From positions 1,093,501 to 1,157,500 of the forward strand of contig NZ_CP046400.1 in assembly GCF_009762795.1 (NCBI RefSeq): a DNA stretch of 64,000 bases, written 5' to 3'. Made by a program: the position numbers and the translations under genes. The notes under the pieces were generated by a model. That model did no database searches, was not told where the DNA came from, and saw only the letters and a list, made by a program, of their open reading frames with translations. This DNA is from Pseudodesulfovibrio cashew (lineage in GTDB: Bacteria; Desulfobacterota; Desulfovibrionia; Desulfovibrionales; Desulfovibrionaceae). Positions 4,559 to 13,923 of the stretch are shown one piece after another; the stretch's first letter is position 1; the number at the start of each line of letters is the position of its first letter.

Positions 4559-5356
4559 TTACCAGCATAAAAGGATCGGGCTGGACACAAGGCCCAGGAC
4601 CTCGGTCAGGGGCGACTTGCGGTTGGACTTCCGGTCCATGTGAGCGACGAGCAGGCCGTAATCGTGCAGGGCCTGCGAGGCGGAGTCCGGGCCGCACAGC
4701 AGGGTATACGCCATGGCCGGTGCATAGCCCCGCTTTTCCAGGATGCGTCCGGCTTCGGCCAGGAGCTCGTCCGGGTGCGGGTCCCGGTGCAGGTCGTCCA
4801 TGGCATAGGCGCACAGGTCGAAATCAGTCCCGGTGTCCGTGAAAAACTTGCAGAACTGGGCGACCAGGTATTCGACGTCGGTCTTTTCGTCGAGCATGAG
4901 GGCCACGCGGTCGGACTGGATCATGTTGCGCACGATCAGGGCCGGGCAGGGCATCTGGCGATAGAGCTTGGAACGGAGCCGCTTGCGGAACTCCCCGGTG
5001 TTGAAGTTGACCACCTCGCCCTCGACGAAGAGGTCGTGCCCCCCCATGCGCAGCTCCTCGAGAATCCTGTCCTCCCGCGATCCCACGCGGACGATCGGGT
5101 TGGGCAGGACAAAGCAGTCCAGCTTCTCGCTCTTGAGAACCCGCTGGACCTCTTCCATGCCGGCCTGGCGCAGCCCCGATTCCCAGGACTTGCGGATCCA
5201 GCCGGTTTCCGAGGAATGCGGCTTGTGATCCGGCTCCTCGACGTGAATGGGCTGAACGCCAATGCCGAGCAGGCCGGCCTTCTGACACAGGTATCTCAGG
5301 GCGACATTGGACGCCAACGTCATCTCCACGGGGACAAGGGCTTTCATCATGTCCAT
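4559..5356 (-). CDS. Usp-like protein (divergent universal stress family)
   Basis: 265 residues starting MDMMKALVPVEMTLASNVALRYLCQKAGLL, which resembles the first Usp strand-helix pair. LIVRNMIQSDRVALMLDEKTDVEYLVAQF marks a likely second Usp unit, and the end (LGLVSSPILLCW) matches a terminal Usp strand. No clear ATP-binding glycine loop is visible, so it may be a non-nucleotide-binding member. It lies between the receiver gene and the tandem Usp gene, 30 and 21 bases away, in the same operon. M3 could also be the start. Confidence 0.78.
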   Translation of the reverse strand: MDMMKALVPVEMTLASNVALRYLCQKAGLLGIGVQPIHVEEPDHKPHSSETGWIRKSWESGLRQAGMEEVQRVLKSEKLDCFVLPNPIVRVGSREDRILEELRMGGHDLFVEGEVVNFNTGEFRKRLRSKLYRQMPCPALIVRNMIQSDRVALMLDEKTDVEYLVAQFCKFFTDTGTDFDLCAYAMDDLHRDPHPDELLAEAGRILEKRGYAPAMAYTLLCGPDSASQALHDYGLLVAHMDRKSNRKSPLTEVLGLVSSPILLCW

Positions 5357-5386: not shown

Positions 5387-5776
5387 TTACGAGCCACAGC
5401 GGATGTGCTCCTCCGCCTTCCTGATGACTTCCTGGATCTCGCCCAGCTTGAAGGGCTTGGCCAGGAAGTCGAACACGCCCTTGCGCATGGACTCCTTGGC
5501 GGTGTCCATGGTGGCGAATCCGGTGATGACGATGACCTCGGTGGACGGGGAGAGCCGTTTGACCTCCGCGAGGAACTGCATCCCGTCGATCCCCTCCATC
5601 TTCAGGTCGGTGACGACGATGTCGAAGCTCCGCTCCCGGATCCGCTCCATGGCCTCGGCACTCTTGTAAAAACTCTCGATTTCATAGCCCATTTTCTCAA
5701 GGGCCGGCTGAAGCCGCTTGCTGACGATGGGTTCGTCGTCCAGGATGAGAATGCTTGTCTTGTATGAACTGATCAT
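5387..5776 (-). CDS. Single-domain response regulator (receiver only)
   Basis: 129 residues, exactly one receiver domain. The acidic pocket is DDE at residues 13-15, the phosphoacceptor is D57 (VVTDLKM), the conserved Thr lies in VITG, and the conserved Lys is K107 (FLAKPF). No output domain follows, so it should act by protein contact, as CheY or Spo0F do. It sits in the sigma-54 operon between the PEP-synthase-like gene and two Usp genes. No histidine kinase is inside the operon; the one at 12467-13867 is a candidate partner by proximity only. Confidence 0.92.
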   Translation of the reverse strand: MISSYKTSILILDDEPIVSKRLQPALEKMGYEIESFYKSAEAMERIRERSFDIVVTDLKMEGIDGMQFLAEVKRLSPSTEVIVITGFATMDTAKESMRKGVFDFLAKPFKLGEIQEVIRKAEEHIRCGS

Positions 5777-5794: not shown

Positions 5795-8383
5795 CTAATT
5801 TAACACCGCCTCATTGACGATGCGTTCGAATTCCTCGCAATGCTCGTAAATGCGGGCATCGTTGACCATGGAGACGTCCAACTGCCTGGTATAGGCCACT
5901 AGAATGCCCAAGATACGCATGAGCCGCTTGAGGTCGCGCGCCATCCAGCCCTTTGCGCGGGCCACGACCAGGTCTTCCTTGACCGTCACGGAGAAGTCGA
6001 AGGTCTTGAGCACCTCCGACAGGAACCGCGCCCGCCGCGAGCGCCGGGTGACGCCGGTGACGCCACCGGCAAAGCGGAACTGGATGCTGTTCCGGGTGCC
6101 GTCCTCGCTCTCGTAACAGTCGATCATGGTGAAGTGGTATCCAAGCTTGAGGCTCAGGTGCAGGTAGTGCTCCGAGATGACGGCGAGATTCTGCCCAATG
6201 TTTTTGGCCCCGGCCGCCTCGGCCGAGAAGGTCCGGGTCATGCTGGACATGAAGCTGGAAAAATCAACGGGCACGGGCGTGGACTGCCACACTCCCTCCA
6301 GGGTCACCCCGTCGATGAAGGCGTGCAGGGTCCCGGACTTGACCTGATCCGGCTGGATGGTCCGGCGCAACTTCAGGCCGTCCAGGCCGCCGGTGCACTC
6401 CGGGGCAAGGCCGCCGCCGATGTCCAGCACTACCAGGTCCAGGGGCACCGGCAGCACCAGCCTGCCGCCCGGGCACGCCTCCCCGGACGCGGAGGCGTTG
6501 GGGATGTTCGCCAGGATGTCCACGGACTTTTCGTGGATGAACCGGGCGATGTCGTGCAGGGTCCGGCATCCCTGCGGGGTGAAATTGCTCGCCTCGGGAT
6601 CGAAAAGGTTCAGCGGCTCGATGAGCTTGAGCATCCGCCGCAGCAGGCGATATTCGTAGGTCTCCTCCATGCGCTCGCGCATGTAGTCGTGGAGCCGCAG
6701 CTCCCTGACCTCGCCCCGGTACACGGTCTTCTGCTCCGCATCCACGGTGACCACGTCGCCCTCTTCCAGGACCATGGTGGCCCGGCTCGCGTTGAGCAGG
6801 GTCGGGACGCGGTATTCCCGCGCGATGGTGGCCATGTGCCCCAGGGGGGAGCCGATGTCGGTGATCACGCCCGAGGCGCGGTGCAGGATCGCGGCGTACT
6901 GGGGCGACGAGAGATGGGCCACAAGCACGGCCCCGTCAGGGAACGTCTCCAGGTCGCGCCCCTCCCAGGCCACGAACACGGGCCCGGAGCCGACGCCCTG
7001 CTGGGCCACCTCGCCCTCGCCGCTGAGCAGCACCGGGTAGCGCTTCAGGCTCTGGCTCAGGTCCGGGGTCTCGCCGTCTTCCTTTCTCCCGATGCGCAGG
7101 GGGCGCGTCTGGAGCACGGTCAGGCTCCCCTCCGAATCAAAGGCGAATTCGATGTCCTGGGGCTTCCTGAAATACCGCTCAAGGCGAACCGCCGTGTCCG
7201 CCAGCAGGCGCACTTCCTCCGGCGACAGGCAGGGGACCTTGCGCAGATCCTCGGGCACGGGCTCCATGGTCACGGAACCGCCCGGCTTGCCCTGCATGGC
7301 CAGGGCCTTGTCCGCGACGGAATTGGACAGGATGGCGTGCCCGGCGTCCCTGGAAACCACGAACCGGTCCACTTCGACCTCGCCGGAGACCACGGGAGCG
7401 CCGAGCCCCCAGGTTCCCGCGATGTCGGTGCTGTTGCGGCCGGGATCGACGGGAGAGAGGCTGTAGGCCACGCCGCTGGTCCTGGCCTCGACCATCTGCT
7501 GCACCGAAACCGCCATGAAGACCTCGTCCGGCTTGAAGTCGTACTCACGCCGGTACTCCATGGCAGAGGGAGAATAGGTGCTGGCGAGCACCTTCCTGTA
7601 GGCGTCGTGCAGGTCCTCGGGGGTGACGTGGAGGAAGCTATCGTACTGACCGGCAAAGGACAGGTTGCCGTCCTCGCCCCAGGCGCTGCTGCGGACCGCC
7701 AGGCGGATCTCCCCGTCCCCGAGCTTGCGCCGCAGGGCGTCGAGCTCCCGGTTCAGGGCCTTGCGCAACCGGGACGGGATGGTCCCGGCGAGGATGTGCG
7801 AACGGATTCTGCCCGAGGCTTCCGCCGCGGACAACTCGCCCGAGTTCCAGGCCTCCTCGCTGTCCTTGATCACGTCGAGGATCTCGTTGCGCTCCATGAA
7901 CAAACGGTAGGCCGCCGTGGTCACGGCGAACCCATGGGGGACCTGGGCCGTGCCGGTCTCGGCGATGATGCCCAGCCGGGTGCTCTTGGCCCCCACCGCG
8001 TCCATGTCCTTGGCCCCGATCTCCTCGAAGGGGATCGCCATGATGTCCGGCAGGACGGGCCGCCGCTCCAGCTCGCCGTCCAGCTTGTCGCGGATGCTCC
8101 GGAAGCTGACGTAGAGTTCGGGATACCGGCCCGGGGCCAGGGCGTCGAAGGCGTCGATCAGCTCACGGACCGTGTTCACCATGTACTGCCTGGAGCTGCG
8201 GAGATATTGCAGGTCGAAGATGTAGCTGCCGCCGAGCTTGTTGTGCATGGACGCGATGGTCGTCAGCACGCGATTGTTCAACTCCAGCACATGCTGGAAC
8301 TGGCCGAAGACGGCGGAGAGGGAACGCCGTTCCCTCCGCCGCCCCTTCAGCCTGTTTTTGATATGTTCGAACAACCTCAGCAT
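5795..8383 (-). CDS. PEP/pyruvate-binding ATP-grasp and phospho-His domain protein, no TIM barrel
   Basis: 862 residues. Residues about 1-110 are a helical N-terminal region. Residues about 120-430 match the PEP/pyruvate-binding ATP-grasp domain of PEP synthase and PPDK (RSSAWGEDGNLSFAGQYDSF at 231-250; QTRPLR at 425-430). Residues about 465-560 match the mobile phosphohistidine domain (GVITDIGSPLGHMATIARE, with H516 as the phosphocarrier candidate). The C-terminal 300 residues do not resemble the PEP-utilising TIM barrel and are not recognised. It could move phosphate or pyrophosphate between ATP and an unknown acceptor through H516. It is the central gene of the operon, 14 bases after the TIGR02186 gene. 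Confidence 0.85.
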   Translation of the reverse strand: MLRLFEHIKNRLKGRRRERRSLSAVFGQFQHVLELNNRVLTTIASMHNKLGGSYIFDLQYLRSSRQYMVNTVRELIDAFDALAPGRYPELYVSFRSIRDKLDGELERRPVLPDIMAIPFEEIGAKDMDAVGAKSTRLGIIAETGTAQVPHGFAVTTAAYRLFMERNEILDVIKDSEEAWNSGELSAAEASGRIRSHILAGTIPSRLRKALNRELDALRRKLGDGEIRLAVRSSAWGEDGNLSFAGQYDSFLHVTPEDLHDAYRKVLASTYSPSAMEYRREYDFKPDEVFMAVSVQQMVEARTSGVAYSLSPVDPGRNSTDIAGTWGLGAPVVSGEVEVDRFVVSRDAGHAILSNSVADKALAMQGKPGGSVTMEPVPEDLRKVPCLSPEEVRLLADTAVRLERYFRKPQDIEFAFDSEGSLTVLQTRPLRIGRKEDGETPDLSQSLKRYPVLLSGEGEVAQQGVGSGPVFVAWEGRDLETFPDGAVLVAHLSSPQYAAILHRASGVITDIGSPLGHMATIAREYRVPTLLNASRATMVLEEGDVVTVDAEQKTVYRGEVRELRLHDYMRERMEETYEYRLLRRMLKLIEPLNLFDPEASNFTPQGCRTLHDIARFIHEKSVDILANIPNASASGEACPGGRLVLPVPLDLVVLDIGGGLAPECTGGLDGLKLRRTIQPDQVKSGTLHAFIDGVTLEGVWQSTPVPVDFSSFMSSMTRTFSAEAAGAKNIGQNLAVISEHYLHLSLKLGYHFTMIDCYESEDGTRNSIQFRFAGGVTGVTRRSRRARFLSEVLKTFDFSVTVKEDLVVARAKGWMARDLKRLMRILGILVAYTRQLDVSMVNDARIYEHCEEFERIVNEAVLN

Positions 8384-8397
8384 CGGCGACTCTCGCG

Positions 8398-9132
8398 TTA
8401 GTGAACGCCTCCGCGTTCCTTGAAGAGCATGCTCATGATCAGACCCGCCAGGATGGCGATGATGACGGCGGCTATACCGTACACCAGGGAATGATCGAAA
8501 GCGAACTTGGACAGCATGGCGGGCACGCCGGTGAGCTTGGTGTGCAGCTCCTGCGAGGCCCGGCCCACGATCTTGCCGTCCCTGACGGCCAGGACCTCCA
8601 CCTCATACACGCCCTGGTGCATGGCGGACGGGATGGACAGCGAGGCGGCGAAGGGCCGCATGCCGTTTTCCGCGTCCTGGTAGGCGACTACGCCATCCTC
8701 GATCTCGTAGAAGCCATCCTGCTCCATGAGCTTGATGAATTCGTCGAAGATAAGGTCGTCTGTCTCGCCCTTGACGGACAGGAACCCGAGGTCCGAGTGC
8801 TCCCAGTTGATGCCCGGAGTGCCGTCGGTGCCCACGAGAAACACGTCGGGAACGTTGGTGATCTCGATGGAGTTGAGATTCATCCACAGGACGCCCAGGG
8901 CCTTGCCCTTCTGCTTGAAGTGGCGGTTCTGGGGCTCGCCCAGCAGCCGGATGACCGCGCTCGTCCCTTCGGGGACCTGGCCGTTGATGGCCAATTGCGC
9001 GCCGTTGAAGCTGGTCCCGATGCCCACCAGGTTGGGCCTGATGGTCAGGGAGGTCTGCGCGCCGGCAAAGGCCGGGCAGGACAGCAGCAGGATGGCCACG
9101 AAGGCCACGCAGGTTGCGGTGAATTTTCTCAT
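8398..9132 (-). CDS. TIGR02186 family (Alph_Pro_TM) membrane-anchored protein
   Basis: 244 residues. There is an N-terminal signal peptide (hydrophobic residues about 5-22, cut near AFAGAQT), a periplasmic region of about 185 residues, and one C-terminal transmembrane helix near residues 213-236 followed by a short basic tail. It resembles the TIGR02186 / Alph_Pro_TM family, which is commonly found next to TauE/SafE permeases. Here it follows such a permease with a gap of 2 bases, so the two probably work together at the inner membrane. The molecular role of the family is not established. Confidence 0.83.
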   Translation of the reverse strand: MRKFTATCVAFVAILLLSCPAFAGAQTSLTIRPNLVGIGTSFNGAQLAINGQVPEGTSAVIRLLGEPQNRHFKQKGKALGVLWMNLNSIEITNVPDVFLVGTDGTPGINWEHSDLGFLSVKGETDDLIFDEFIKLMEQDGFYEIEDGVVAYQDAENGMRPFAASLSIPSAMHQGVYEVEVLAVRDGKIVGRASQELHTKLTGVPAMLSKFAFDHSLVYGIAAVIIAILAGLIMSMLFKERGGVH

Positions 9133-9134
9133 GA

Positions 9135-10064
9135 CTAGTGACCTCCGGCGTAAGCGAGCAGCACGTCGGGCGTGAGCAGCAGGTTGAGCAGCATCTTGAC
9201 CATGACGGCGAGCACCAGGGTGGCCAGCAGGATCTTGAGTTGCTCGCCCTTGAGCTTGCGGCTGATCCGGGTGCCGAACTGGGCTCCGAGGGTGGAGCCG
9301 AGCAGCAGCAGGACGGCCAGCACGAAGTCCACGGTGTGGTTGGTGTACGACTGCAGGATGGTCACGTTGATGCAGGTGAACAGGATCTGGAAGAGGCTGG
9401 TGCCGACGACCACGTGCATGGGCATGCGCAGCAGGTAGACCATGATCGGGACCATGATGAAGCCGCCGCCGACGCCCATGATGGCCGCCAGGACGCCCAC
9501 CAGGACGCCCAGCACCAGGGGCATGAGCACGGACAGGCGTACGCCGGACTTGGTGAACTCCATCTGGAAGGGGAGGCTCTCCAGCATGCTGGTGTAGCGG
9601 GATTTCTTCTTGGGGGGAGCCTGGGTGTCGGCCTCCGGGGCCTTCTTGCGCATGCTCTGCAGGCTCTCGATGAACATGTAGGAACCCACGCCGCCGAGCA
9701 TCAGCACGTAGGTGATGTTGATCAGGAAGTCGGCGTTGCCCATGGCCCTGAGGACCTTGATCACCTGGACGCCGCCAAAGCCGCCGAGCACGCCGCCGAT
9801 GAGGAGCAGGAAGCCCATCTTGAAGTCCACGTTACCCAGCCTGTAGTGGGCCAGGCAGCCCGAGGTGGACGCCCCGACGATCTGGTTCGAGTCGGAAGCG
9901 GCGGCCACGGTCGGCGGTATGCCGAACATGATCAGCAGCGGGGTCATCAGAAATCCTCCACCGACACCGAAAATGCCGGAAAGCAGGCCGACAAACCCTC
10001 CCAAGGCGAACACGAGGAACACGTTCACGCTGTTCCCGGCGATGGGAAGATACATATGAAACAT
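9135..10064 (-). CDS. TauE/SafE family sulfite/organosulfonate exporter-like permease
   Basis: 309 residues, with two half-repeats of hydrophobic segments. Each begins with the family motif: GLLSGIFGVGGGFLMTPLLIMFGIP in the first half and GVLAAIMGVGGGFIMVPIMVYLLRMP in the second. A charged cytoplasmic loop at about 142-170 separates them. Family members export sulfite, sulfoacetate or other small anions, or import metals; the substrate is not visible. It is the second gene of the operon and is paired with the TIGR02186 gene. In a sulfate reducer an anion of sulfur metabolism is plausible, but this is inference. Confidence 0.93.
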   Translation of the reverse strand: MFHMYLPIAGNSVNVFLVFALGGFVGLLSGIFGVGGGFLMTPLLIMFGIPPTVAAASDSNQIVGASTSGCLAHYRLGNVDFKMGFLLLIGGVLGGFGGVQVIKVLRAMGNADFLINITYVLMLGGVGSYMFIESLQSMRKKAPEADTQAPPKKKSRYTSMLESLPFQMEFTKSGVRLSVLMPLVLGVLVGVLAAIMGVGGGFIMVPIMVYLLRMPMHVVVGTSLFQILFTCINVTILQSYTNHTVDFVLAVLLLLGSTLGAQFGTRISRKLKGEQLKILLATLVLAVMVKMLLNLLLTPDVLLAYAGGH

Positions 10065-10201: not shown

Positions 10202-10633
10202 TCATTTCCTTTTGCTGTGAGCGGAAACCTTCTGGACCACCTCCACCTCGCAGTGGGTGGTGGTGTTCACCGCGTCGATGACCTTCATCAATTTGGCGTA
10301 GGCGTCGGGTCGACGGCCCTCCGGGTGGCCGATGAACATCTTGGAGATGGCGTTTTCCCGTATGAATTTAGGGACTTCCTCCTCCATCCTGCCTCGCGTG
10401 ACGTAGTAATTGATGTGCGCCGAATCGGAGTGATCCTCGGCAAGGACGGATTCGAGCCGCTTTTCCGGTGAGCCGATCCACTGGCCGGAGTCCCCGCACA
10501 GGTCGGAGTACTCCTCGTCGACGACCATCAGAATGGAGACCCGCGCGTCGATGCGGTGGGTCAGGCCCATGGCGTAGTAGGCCAGCCACAGGCTGGACTC
10601 GGATTTTTCCACGACAATCAATACGTTCTTCAT
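10202..10633 (-). CDS. Small universal stress protein, first gene of the sigma-54 operon
   Basis: 143 residues from ATG 10633. It begins MKNVLIVVEKSESSLWLAYYAMGL and has the Usp half RENAISKMFIGHPEGRRPDAYAKLMKVIDAVN. The typical G-2x-G-9x-G(S/T) ATP loop is absent. The open frame reaches 10654, but the sigma-54 promoter at 10658-10673 predicts transcription from about 10647. The downstream ATG with its GAGGAAGC ribosome-binding site must therefore be the start. A 137-base spacer with no visible signal separates it from the permease gene. Confidence 0.88.
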   Translation of the reverse strand: MKNVLIVVEKSESSLWLAYYAMGLTHRIDARVSILMVVDEEYSDLCGDSGQWIGSPEKRLESVLAEDHSDSAHINYYVTRGRMEEEVPKFIRENAISKMFIGHPEGRRPDAYAKLMKVIDAVNTTTHCEVEVVQKVSAHSKRK

Positions 10634-10657
10634 GCTTCCTCTCGTTGCCGCCATAAG

Positions 10658-10673
10658 AGCAAAGCCGGTGCCA
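10658..10673 (-). promoter_or_regulatory. Sigma-54 (RpoN) promoter of the usp-tauE-PEP operon
   Basis: On the minus strand the sequence is TGGCAC-CGGCT-TTGCT, which matches the -24/-12 consensus TGGCAC-N5-TTGCW with correct GG/GC spacing. The predicted start of transcription is about 10647, only 14 bases before the ATG of the small usp gene. An NtrC-type activator is encoded about 450 bases upstream on the same strand. Confidence 0.88.
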
Positions 10674-10767
10674 ACCCGTCCGAAGGGGGAAAAGCGGCTA
10701 ACTAACCAGAACTATTGAATGTCTGTCTTTCTATGGTGGGGTGATCCGCTCAATTCACTCGAAATCG

Positions 10768-10783
10768 TGTTCCATAATGAACA
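10768..10783. promoter_or_regulatory. Activator-site candidate A (inverted repeat)
   Basis: TGTTCCATAATGAACA, with 5-base arms TGTTC/GAACA. The 12-base core (TTCATTATGGAA on the other strand) is found again at 10918-10929. It lies about 120 bases upstream of the predicted sigma-54 transcription start, a usual distance for an enhancer-binding protein. Confidence 0.7.
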
Positions 10784-10874
10784 GCTATCGACTGATTCGC
10801 TCGTGTCGGCACGAAGGCCGGTGCCCAGACAGTAATACTTTCATAACTATCTGTTTTATTGAAATAAGTGCTAA

Positions 10875-10896
10875 AATACACTGGAAGTAGTGTATT
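10875..10896. promoter_or_regulatory. Perfect 8-base inverted repeat
   Basis: AATACACT and AGTGTATT are separated by six bases. The sequence differs from the three TTCATTATGGAA-like sites around it, so it may bind another regulator or simply form a hairpin. Confidence 0.5.
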
Positions 10897-10914
10897 CGGT
10901 ATAAGCCGTTTGCG

Positions 10915-10930
10915 TGTTTCATTATGGAAA
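10915..10930. promoter_or_regulatory. Activator-site candidate B
   Basis: TGTTTCATTATGGAAA contains the core TTCATTATGGAA, identical to the reverse complement of the core of site A. It is about 270 bases upstream of the predicted sigma-54 transcription start. Confidence 0.65.
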
Positions 10931-10976
10931 AAACGCTTTTTCCGAATCGGCCCGACGGACCAAAAGCTGAAAATCG

Positions 10977-10992
10977 TGTTTCAAAATGAACA
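10977..10992. promoter_or_regulatory. Activator-site candidate C
   Basis: TGTTTCAAAATGAACA is flanked by the same bases as site A (AATCGTG before, GC after), so the two are imperfect direct repeats of about 23 bases. It is about 330 bases upstream of the predicted start, just after the hairpin that follows the regulator gene. Confidence 0.65.
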
Positions 10993-11027
10993 GCCCGGCG
11001 CGGGCCGTTGTCGGGCACGCGCCGGGC
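10993..11027 (-). terminator. Hairpin after the two-component operon, candidate terminator
   Basis: The arms GCCCGGCGCG and CGCGCCGGGC pair over 10 bases. On the minus strand the hairpin is followed only by a weak T-rich tail (TGTTCATTTTG). On the plus strand T8 follows, but 8 bases away from the stem. It most likely ends the kinase/regulator transcript before the usp promoter region. Confidence 0.5.
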
Positions 11028-11111
11028 AGGCATAATTTTTTTTGAAGGAGGGGAAGAGAAAGGGGTGATGGACCGAGAAATGACGCGGGCCGAGGGGGCG
11101 TTCGCCGGGCG

Positions 11112-12467
11112 CTAGTCCTCGTCCGCCTTCAGTCCGAATTTCTTGATCCTGCGCCACAGGGTGGTCCGGGGGATGCCCAGGATGCTGCTGCTCAGCCCCT
11201 TGTTGTAGCCGGTGGCCTCCAGGACGCGCTGGATGTGCCGCCGCTCCACCTCTTCCAGGGGGAGCAGACCAGGGGTGCCGAGGCTGCTGAAGGAGAGGTT
11301 GAGCAGGTCCTGGGGAAGCTCGCGGATACCCACGGTTTCCCCGTCGGTCAGGGCCACGGCGCGCTGCACGATGTTCTCCAGCTCGCGCACGTTACCCGGG
11401 TAGTTGTACTGGACCAGGATGTCCATGGCCTCGGGCGAGATGGAGCGGACGCCCTTGCCGAAGCGGGTGTTGAAGATCTCCAGGAAGTGGTTGGCCAGCA
11501 GCGGGATGTCTTCCTTTCGCTCGGCCAGGGGCGGCAGGTAAATTCTGACCACGTTCAGGCGGTAGAACAGGTCCTCGCGGAACTCGCCAGCAAGCATGGC
11601 CTCCTCCAGGTCCCGGTTGGTGGCGGCGATGATGCGGATGTCCAGGTCGATGGGCTGGGTGCCGCCCACGCGCATGATGCGCCGCTCCTGGATCACGTGC
11701 AGCAGCTTGACCTGCATGTTCAGCGGCATCTCGCCGATCTCGTCCAGGAAGACCGTGCCGCCGTTGGCGGATTCCAGCAGGCCGATCTTGGTGGCCGTGG
11801 CCCCGGTAAAGGCACCCTTCTCGTGCCCGAAGAGCTCGCTGGAGATGAGCTCCTCGGTGAACCCGCCGCAGTTGAACGACACGAAGGTCTTGTCCTTGCG
11901 GGGGCTGAGATCGTGGATGGCCTTGGCCGCCCGCTCCTTTCCGGTGCCGGTATCGGCCTGGAGCAGCACGTTGCAGTTGACCCCGGCCACCTTGCGGATC
12001 ATGGCGAAGACCTCGAGCATGGCCGGGCTGGAACCCAGGAAATCCTTGCGCGGGGCCTTTTCCAGGGCCTCCCGCAGGCGGCGGTTTTCCGAGCGCAGCG
12101 CGATCTTCTCCTGGGCCTCGCGGACAATGGTCTTGATCTCCTGCAGACGGAAGGGCTTGACCACGTAGTTGGATGCCCCCTTGGCCGTGGCCTCCACAGC
12201 CGAGGGAATGCTGGCGTTTCCGGTGATGATCACGGCCTCGACATTGTCGAACCCGGTCTTGACCGCCTCCAGGATGTCCAGGCCGTCCATGTCGGGCAGC
12301 TTGAGATCGATGAAGACGAGCTGGAACGGGTCCTCGGCCATGCGCGCCAGGAAATTGTGCCCCGACGAGAAGGTCTCCACCTCGAAGCCGAGTTTTTCCA
12401 CTGCCCGGGCCACAAGCCGCCTGGCCTGGACCTCGTCGTCTATGACCGCCGCGCGATTGGTTTGCAT
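11112..12467 (-). CDS. NtrC-family sigma-54-dependent response regulator
   Basis: 451 residues. The receiver domain (1-120) has D10/D11, phosphoacceptor D54 and K104. The AAA+ domain (about 143-380) has a Walker A variant ADTGTGKE at 171-178, GAFTGA at 218-223 (contact with sigma-54), Walker B VFLDEIGE and an arginine-finger region FREDLFYRL. The C-terminal Fis-type HTH covers about 408-445. It activates sigma-54 promoters by ATP hydrolysis. Its start overlaps the stop of the kinase gene (TGATG), so the two are translationally coupled. The sigma-54 promoter at 10658 and its repeats are the obvious target. Confidence 0.95.
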   Translation of the reverse strand: MQTNRAAVIDDEVQARRLVARAVEKLGFEVETFSSGHNFLARMAEDPFQLVFIDLKLPDMDGLDILEAVKTGFDNVEAVIITGNASIPSAVEATAKGASNYVVKPFRLQEIKTIVREAQEKIALRSENRRLREALEKAPRKDFLGSSPAMLEVFAMIRKVAGVNCNVLLQADTGTGKERAAKAIHDLSPRKDKTFVSFNCGGFTEELISSELFGHEKGAFTGATATKIGLLESANGGTVFLDEIGEMPLNMQVKLLHVIQERRIMRVGGTQPIDLDIRIIAATNRDLEEAMLAGEFREDLFYRLNVVRIYLPPLAERKEDIPLLANHFLEIFNTRFGKGVRSISPEAMDILVQYNYPGNVRELENIVQRAVALTDGETVGIRELPQDLLNLSFSSLGTPGLLPLEEVERRHIQRVLEATGYNKGLSSSILGIPRTTLWRRIKKFGLKADED

Positions 12468-13867
12468 CAGGCCTCCTCCCCTTCCGCCAGCAGCGGCAGG
12501 CGGACGGTGAACGTGGCGCCCTCGCCCGGCTCGCTGTCGGCGTCGATGGACCCGCCGTGCTTCTTGATGATGCCGTAGATGATGGAGAGCCCCAGGCCGG
12601 TGCCCTGCCCCACGGGCTTGGTGGTGAAGAAGGGATCGAAGATGCGGCTCAGGGTCTCCCGGTCCATGCCGCAGCCGTTGTCGGCCACGTCCACCCGGAG
12701 CATACCCCCGTCCTCGCGGGCCGAGATGCGCAGGGTCCCGCCCTGCTTCATGGCCTGGTCGGCATTGAGGAACAGATTGATGAAAACCTGCTGGAGATAG
12801 TGAAGATCGCCCCTGATGGCGGGCAGTCCGTCCGGGATGTCCACCTCCACGCCGACATGGTTCAGGGCCAGTTGATTGCCCACCAGCTTGAGTGTCTGGC
12901 TGATGACCGTGGCAATGTCCAGCCGGGACAGGCTGCGCTGCTCCTCGCGGGAGAAGTCGAGCAGGTTGCGGACAACCCCGCTGGCGCGGCCCGTCTCGTT
13001 GATGATGTCGGTCAGCAGCTCCCGGATCTCTTCCTTGGGCAGGTCGTCCAGCTCCTCCAGAAGGGTGTCTGCCGTCAGGGAGACATTGTTCAGGGGGTTG
13101 TTCAGCTCATGGGCGATGCCCGAGGTCAGGGTGCCGATGGACACCAGCTTGCGGGCCTCGATGAGCTGTTCCTGGCGCGTGTCCAGTTCGCCGGCCATAT
13201 TCCGGAAGGCAGAGCGCATCAGCAGGGAGATGGGGTCTTCGCTGCTGATCTGCTGCACGGCGGCGTAGTCGCCCTTGGCCACGCCCTCGGCAGCCCGCTG
13301 GACGTACTTCAGCCGGTCCAGGACCTTCCTGGCCTGCCAGATGTAGACGATGGTGCCCAGAGCCAGCAGCAACGCCATGACCGCCAGGGGCAGAAACAGG
13401 ATGCGGTTCAGGGCGGTGTGGATGCGAAGCTTCTTCTGCCGGAGCAGGTCCTGGGCAAACTCCACCAGCCAGGTCCCTTTCCGCCGGGTGGCGGTGGCCA
13501 CGGTCTTGTCGCCGTGCGCCAGGGAGTTGAGCAGCGTACGGTATTCCCTGATGTTGGCCCGCAGGGAGCCGTAGGCCTCGTTGCCCACGATCTCGACGAT
13601 CTTGGGCTGGAGCAGGTTGGCCGTTTTTTCGGCCCGGTCAAGATAGACCTGGGCCTCCTTGAGGCTGCCCGGCTCAGGGTAGAACATGAAGTTCTTTTCA
13701 TACCGGCGCGTTTCCAGGATGTCCGACAACACGTCGTGGAATTCGTCAATGATCGTCAGCCGCTCGCGGAAGGCGGCGATGTTCCACCAGTACATGCCCA
13801 TGTTCAGGGACATGAACACGACATAGGCGATGAAGAGCAGAAAGACTTTGATTTTGAGTGCGCGCAT
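12467..13867 (-). CDS. Membrane histidine kinase, partner of the NtrC-type regulator
   Basis: 466 residues from ATG 13867; the open frame extends to 13915, but the membrane segment begins right after MRALKIKV. It has TM1 at about 4-26, a periplasmic helical sensor region of about 130 residues, TM2 at about 156-178, a HAMP-like linker, the H-box GIAHELNNPLNN with H253, and the N, G1 and G2 boxes (NLFLNADQAM, VADNGCGM, GQGTGLGLSI). The sensor looks like an all-helical bundle, as in chemoreceptors; its ligand is unknown. It is co-transcribed with the regulator that follows. Confidence 0.94.
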   Translation of the reverse strand: MRALKIKVFLLFIAYVVFMSLNMGMYWWNIAAFRERLTIIDEFHDVLSDILETRRYEKNFMFYPEPGSLKEAQVYLDRAEKTANLLQPKIVEIVGNEAYGSLRANIREYRTLLNSLAHGDKTVATATRRKGTWLVEFAQDLLRQKKLRIHTALNRILFLPLAVMALLLALGTIVYIWQARKVLDRLKYVQRAAEGVAKGDYAAVQQISSEDPISLLMRSAFRNMAGELDTRQEQLIEARKLVSIGTLTSGIAHELNNPLNNVSLTADTLLEELDDLPKEEIRELLTDIINETGRASGVVRNLLDFSREEQRSLSRLDIATVISQTLKLVGNQLALNHVGVEVDIPDGLPAIRGDLHYLQQVFINLFLNADQAMKQGGTLRISAREDGGMLRVDVADNGCGMDRETLSRIFDPFFTTKPVGQGTGLGLSIIYGIIKKHGGSIDADSEPGEGATFTVRLPLLAEGEEA

Positions 13868-13908
13868 GCAGGCTCCGGCTTTGCGGGCCACACCGATAGG
13901 AACGCCTC

Positions 13909-13923
13909 CGTTCACATTGAACG
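13909..13923. promoter_or_regulatory. Inverted repeat upstream of the kinase gene
   Basis: CGTTCACATTGAACG, a 6-base arm palindrome with a 3-base spacer, 42 bases before the kinase ATG. It shares 10 of 14 positions with the reverse strand of activator site C, so it may be a weak site for the same regulator (autoregulation). No sigma-54 promoter is seen beside it. Confidence 0.4.

Follow-up and report, generated by a model that had tools for sequence, protein, structure and literature searches.

Three inverted repeats before a sigma-54 promoter in Pseudodesulfovibrio cashew as predicted enhancer sites of a neighbouring NtrC-family regulator

Gene arrangement and the intergenic region

The window, that is, the whole stretch of 64,000 nucleotides of P. 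cashew that was analysed, carries on its minus strand an operon-like run of genes preceded by the genes of a sensor kinase and a response regulator. The first gene of the run encodes a Usp-like protein (10202-10633) and is followed by a TauE/SafE (TSUP) transporter (9135-10064; Pfam TauE, 3.9e-50), an Alph_Pro_TM membrane protein (8398-9132; Pfam Alph_Pro_TM, with TIGR02186 below its cut-off), a PEP-synthase-like protein with PPDK_N and PEP-utilizers domains (5795-8383), a stand-alone response regulator receiver recognized by domain scan (5387-5776), and a last gene (4559-5356) for which Pfam and NCBIfam returned no match. The gaps along this run measure 137, 2, 14, 18 and 30 bp. Upstream of the operon, and on the same strand, lie the gene of the response regulator and sigma-54 activator (11112-12467), the candidate ligand of the sites described below, with Pfam receiver, AAA+ and Fis HTH domains and GAFTGA in its translation, and that of a sensor histidine kinase (12467-13915; HisKA and HATPase_c), its presumed partner. 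In the first-pass annotation, made from the letters of the sequence, the regulator was described as NtrC-type; of this label the family assignment stands, the nearest solved relatives being NtrC-family activators, whereas the protein falls below the curated NCBIfam cut-off for NtrC (399.9 against 558.6 bits). Nor does it reach the curated cut-off for any of the NCBIfam families among the matches listed (25 of 105), which include AtoC and ZraR. The segment PRTTLWR in the HTH domain is present in 43 of 44 regulators and may be common in the wider activator family.

The region between the regulator stop (11112) and the Usp-like gene contains a sigma-54 -24/-12 promoter, TTGGCACCGGCTTTGC (10659-10674, minus strand), an exact match to TTGGCACN5TTGC that is conserved across an 18-locus alignment. 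Counted about 12 bases past the GC of the -12 element, transcription would start near 10647. The longest Usp reading frame (start at 10652-10654) begins upstream of this point, and the longer version, 10202-10654, scores 25.5 bits with Pfam Usp at a cut-off of 24. The true start is probably the M of MKNVLIVV at 10633, because all 18 aligned loci have an ATG at this position, GAGGAAG lies ahead of it, and the ATG at 10654 is upstream of the expected transcription start; with this start, the gap between the regulator stop and the first operon gene amounts to 478 bp. A short conserved AT-rich block (10699-10719; TAT.. then GTTA or GTTG) is situated about 25 bp ahead of the -24 box, between the promoter and the nearest of the three repeats. 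An IHF consensus does not explain this block; over the 18 loci, the best scores for that consensus between enhancer and promoter sum to 129 vs 124.7 (sd 2.8) in mononucleotide shuffles, a difference without significance.

Three related inverted repeats had been claimed in this region, and they are present: site 1, furthest from the promoter (10977-10992, sense TGTTCATTTTGAAACA), site 2 (10915-10930, sense TTTCCATAATGAAACA), 62 bp from site 1, and site 3, nearest to the promoter (10768-10783, sense TGTTCATTATGGAACA), at a distance of 147 bp from site 2 and of 115 bp from the promoter, all on the minus strand. The distance of 120-345 bases to the sigma-54 start given for them holds with a start near 10647, and the distances of the three dyads from the promoter run from 115 up to 324 bp. 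The direct repeats in which two of the sites had been placed do contain the two outer ones, but are 24 nt long instead of 23 (10762-10785 and 10971-10994), with 22 of 24 bases the same (92%); segment 10770-10781 is the exact reverse complement of 10918-10929. A common core exists as well, but the conserved unit is the 13-bp TTTCAWWWTGAAA (sense), with a rightward extension to TGAAACA, rather than TGTT...AACA around TTCATTATGGAA. The sites lie outside coding sequence, as had been stated, if an 82-aa ORF on the minus strand (10785-11033), which overlaps sites 1 and 2, is taken as spurious because the sequence of the relatives there has, by eye, many changes and gaps. Site 1 is adjoined by a GC-rich inverted repeat (10993-11027; 14-nt arms, 7-nt loop), perhaps the terminator of the regulator gene; in the alignment, hairpins are seen by eye at the matching place in loci L034 and L041 too. 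A simple-rule terminator scan of 10500-11200 returned none, and no known RNA family reached the gathering score in 10500-11300.

Exact matches to TGTTYCAWWATGRAMA in the 3.9-Mb genome are these three sites only, and out of 2000 dinucleotide shuffles of the 457 bp at 10655-11111, one contains three cores. With three mismatches allowed, the pattern of the first-pass annotation matches four times in the window against 1.8 expected, and 10 of 100 shuffles reach four; the degenerate pattern within the window is thus weak evidence, and the weight is carried by the relatives.

Conservation and helical spacing of the sites

Among 35 other genomes of the genus, 8 have a match to the Usp-like gene, and Alph_Pro_TM, taken as marker, was found in 46 of the 199 genomes searched in the order, that of the window included. 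Forty-eight loci were sorted by arrangement: 17 are close tandem loci, with kinase, regulator, Usp and TauE one after another, 24 are divergent, with the kinase facing away from the operon, and 7 fall in neither group. All 17 close tandem loci have three upstream copies of the core (<=2 mismatches). The spacing is maintained along with them: site 1 to site 2 measures 62-65 bp (mean 63.5, sd 1.0), site 2 to site 3 142-149 bp and once 176 bp (about three turns more), and site 3 to the promoter 110-114 bp (mean 112.5, sd 1.2), the corresponding values in the window being 62, 147 and 115, the last one base beyond the range of the relatives. Conservation in the 18-locus alignment is concentrated in the columns of the promoter, the Usp start and the three sites, and the rest varies freely. 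Half of the divergent loci (12 of 24) have two sites 41-42 bp apart, which lie 92-96 bp from the promoter in 11 of the 12 and at 84 bp in L049; of the others, 8 of 24 have one core, 3 of 24 have two cores at different spacings, and L067 has no core within two mismatches. Tandem and divergent layouts alike hold regulator, sites and promoter together.

A 21-column profile trained on 51 sites from the 17 relatives, with the window excluded, scores the three sites above every other place in the window, with 28.4 bits (site 1, top score), 28.4 bits (site 2) and 22.5 bits (site 3), the next unrelated place on either strand reaching at most 13.5 bits. For the profile data, cores less than 400 bp from TauE were dropped (three loci, with a 2-mismatch match 18 bp before TauE). 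The search core was picked after the window and the relatives had been viewed, so that the 51-site collection and the core counts are not fully blind.

The spacings were analysed further in 113 non-redundant loci out of 128, with 15 near-identical ones removed. Eighty-eight of them have at least one core (<=1 mismatch) and 62 at least two, compared with 0.018 per shuffled locus. The 75 core spacings between 20 and 160 bp (spacings outside 21-159 bp being left out) cluster near 41, 63, 82, 125 and 144 bp, with values such as 27, 55, 109 and 114 outside the main classes. Their phase matches a period of 10.2-10.4 bp (R from 0.53 to 0.50), the nominal Rayleigh p of 1e-9 to 1e-8 having to be read with the related loci not independent. 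This helical phase suggests that the proteins would bind on one face of the helix.

The link to the regulator gene and the search for further targets

A scan of the genome collection with a TauE alignment yielded at least 470 confirmed loci, of which the best 80 are the named ones; these range over Pseudodesulfovibrio, other Desulfovibrio-type bacteria, Desulfobacterales, Desulfobulbaceae, Syntrophobacter-type bacteria and one labelled Nitrospirae. In these best 80 of at least 470 loci, cores with at most one mismatch number 107 in the 115,436 bases before TauE vs 7 in 671,023 bases elsewhere; the 13-bp core is thus 89 times denser before the transporter gene, a contrast that partly reflects base composition; the comparison stretches include coding DNA of other composition. 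When loci with less than 3.7 kb of upstream sequence (16 of 80) are omitted, the regulator gene is found in 54 of the 64 remaining named loci (from the best 80 of at least 470), and a core accompanies it in 46 of 54, vs 1 of 10 loci without the gene (Fisher p 8e-6, kinship ignored). The same table for all best 80 of at least 470 loci reads 53, 8, 7 and 12 (p 5e-5). On the TauE tree, six supported independent pairs gave a mean of 3.6 for the association, 0 against and 2.4 undecided (sign test p 0.125); the events in this tree-aware test are too few, and kinship weakens the association of regulator and core.

Among the best 80 of at least 470 loci, 8 of the 54 with the regulator have no core within one mismatch (L123, L156, L160, L162, L171, L172, L175, L192); L076, at the same place as L156, has two cores at two mismatches, 41 bp apart. 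The one of ten loci of this set with a core and no regulator gene found in the stretch is L137, and cores without the regulator in the stretch also occur outside the 64-locus table in L064 (nearly 5 kb upstream) and L065 (about 2 kb). Some related TSUP loci (L136, L144, L166, L174, L179, L189) have a kinase match, and neither this activator nor its sites; another regulator has possibly replaced the activator there.

Loci such as L064 and L137 are what would be expected if the sites were sigma-54 enhancers bound by some other activator encoded elsewhere, alone or together with the neighbour. The genus of genome G149 indeed holds relatives of the regulator at 41-48% identity, and two D. vulgaris activators are reported, in the main text of PMC4641369, to share one motif before a TSUP operon. 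We nevertheless regard such a ligand as improbable, since the neighbouring regulator accompanies the sites in tandem and divergent layouts, and they are mostly missing where it is missing. It is more doubtful still that a repressor or an unrelated global regulator of the FNR/Crp type binds here: dyads of 13-16 bp are typical of FNR/Crp-type regulators too, but a set of three copies in helical phase, located 115-324 bp ahead of a sigma-54 promoter and linked to the gene of a sigma-54 activator, would be hard to reconcile with such a protein. Chance similarity or a dispersed repeat, in favour of which one can quote that the degenerate pattern in the window is just modestly above expectation, has a negligible probability, given an exact pattern with no further match in the genome, the rarity of three cores in shuffles and the conservation over many genera.

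The first-pass annotation had recommended scanning the genome for the core next to other -24/-12 promoters. The exact pattern, as described above, is confined to the three sites, and the pattern searches revealed no second cluster elsewhere; the degenerate pattern with two mismatches gave 49 matches in the genome vs 18 for the reversed control. Profile scoring outside the window covered a part of the genome, namely 52 loci or stretches taking in 34 + 49 pattern matches, and a single scored place there reaches 20 bits, at 3799338 (L103; 23.8 bits), the remainder staying at or below 18.8 bits. This single site before a second Usp-like gene was rejected as a target, as it is not conserved: in 14 related loci (L195-L208) no match above 14 bits lies at its place, L203 being incomplete with offsets that are not comparable. 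Those related loci have a sigma-54-like element of their own. The element is conserved before the second Usp-like gene with TTGA at -12, as TGGCATGTGTTTTGA or close to it (L103:1224-1238, L194-L208), and in 13 of 15 loci it precedes the match start by 211-221 bp (L203 incomplete, L201 none). Three of the 15 loci show a weaker related palindrome of more than 14 bits at -380 to -386. This palindrome is probably served by another activator. The regulator of the window itself looks local, serving one operon, because the sole 20-bit place outside the window among the scored stretches is not conserved. In the main text of PMC4641369, service of a single operon is usual in D. vulgaris, most regulons comprising one to four operons.

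Proposed function and relation to known systems

Three features expected of a sigma-54 enhancer are found together here: a -24/-12 promoter downstream, repeated dyads some 80-400 bp upstream of it, and a candidate activator with GAFTGA and a Fis HTH. The conserved spacing lends indirect support to the idea that activation would require the sites and would tolerate their displacement by complete helical turns. As the perfect promoter, the domains of the regulator, the position of the sites, the conservation of their sequence and spacing, and their co-occurrence with the regulator gene agree, the three palindromes are very probably enhancer (UAS) sites of the sigma-54 promoter for the response regulator encoded at 11112-12467, which upholds the proposal of the first-pass annotation; the binding itself is deduced from sequence. 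It can be envisaged that, upon a signal, the kinase (12467-13915) phosphorylates this regulator, that dimers of its Fis-type HTH occupy the three sites, which would lie on about one helix face some 6 and 14 turns apart, and that the assembled AAA+ ring contacts sigma-54 polymerase at 10659-10674 via DNA looping. ATP hydrolysis would then open the promoter and turn on the operon of Usp, TauE/TSUP, Alph_Pro_TM, PEP-synthase-like protein, receiver and last gene, which are presumably co-transcribed.

The classical case for comparison is NtrC at the glnA enhancer, where phased dyads lie upstream of a sigma-54 promoter and the activator belongs to the same family as the one discussed here. The likeness extends to the phased dyads and the common activator family. 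The difference is that the present regulator scores under the NtrC cut-off; furthermore, the NtrC consensus dyad TGCACC-N5-GGTGCA does not occur within three mismatches in 10655-11111, so that neither the cut-off nor the dyad points to NtrC proper.

Closer parallels come from the sulfate reducer D. vulgaris Hildenborough, for which the main texts of Rajeev 2011 (PMC3333781) and Kazakov 2015 (PMC4641369) describe two-component sigma-54 activators with Fis HTH whose sites, for the most part palindromes, precede -24/-12 promoters and are in many cases close to the gene of the regulator. In this organism, according to PMC4641369, nine sigma-54 operons encode TSUP or PSE transporters. The system described here resembles these regulons, as far as the main texts portray them, in its Fis-HTH sigma-54 activator, palindromic sites, TSUP operon and nearby regulator. 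Candidate counterparts, known from their description in PMC4641369 without motif letters, are DVU0118, with the target DVU0123-DVU0121, and DVU0110/DVUA0057, with the target DVU0132-DVU0133 (TSUP); a search for the D. vulgaris counterpart in the genus of G149 found a regulator at 57-58% identity in 4 of 8 genomes. This genus is presumably Nitratidesulfovibrio, since L162, which comes from Nitratidesulfovibrio, has promoter letters in common with L071, L073 and L076. The DVU3305 system of general stress likewise has, in the main texts of PMC3333781 and PMC4641369, a sigma-54 response regulator with a kinase, in control of an operon containing Usp domains, and the likeness lies in just these elements. 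On the other hand, DVU3305 has GAFSGA (PMC3333781) where GAFTGA is found here, and its system is described with a receiver protein together with a lon protease, whereas the Lon domain is absent from the eight proteins scanned here. The kind of system is well known, namely sigma-54 activators in sulfate reducers that have palindromes upstream as their sites, and the present locus is a new example of it. In the passages considered, neither PMC3333781 nor PMC4641369 describes a phased layout of three sites or how widely it is spread, and the literature search, which covered article text, found no description of the motif.

The mechanism is an ordinary one; what is most interesting is that a phased spacing has been conserved across many genera. 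It appears somewhat probable that the sites represent one old module across sulfate-reducer-type genera, made up of a dedicated pair of kinase and sigma-54 activator, a TSUP operon and two to three TTTCAWWWTGAAA dyads at whole-turn, seemingly mostly even, spacings (about 41, 63, 82, 125 and 144 bp), with changing gene arrangement and copy number. A sigma-54 regulator that is common beside a conserved transporter operon in sulfate reducers, and that fits none of the named NCBIfam groups among the matches listed (25 of 105), thereby gains predictions of its binding motif, target operon and promoter. The variants of spacing that occur in nature, most of them close to whole turns, are a useful set for studying effects of distance and phase in bacterial enhancers, and if the reading as one old module is true, they would constitute a natural series from which the grammar of bacterial enhancers may be read.
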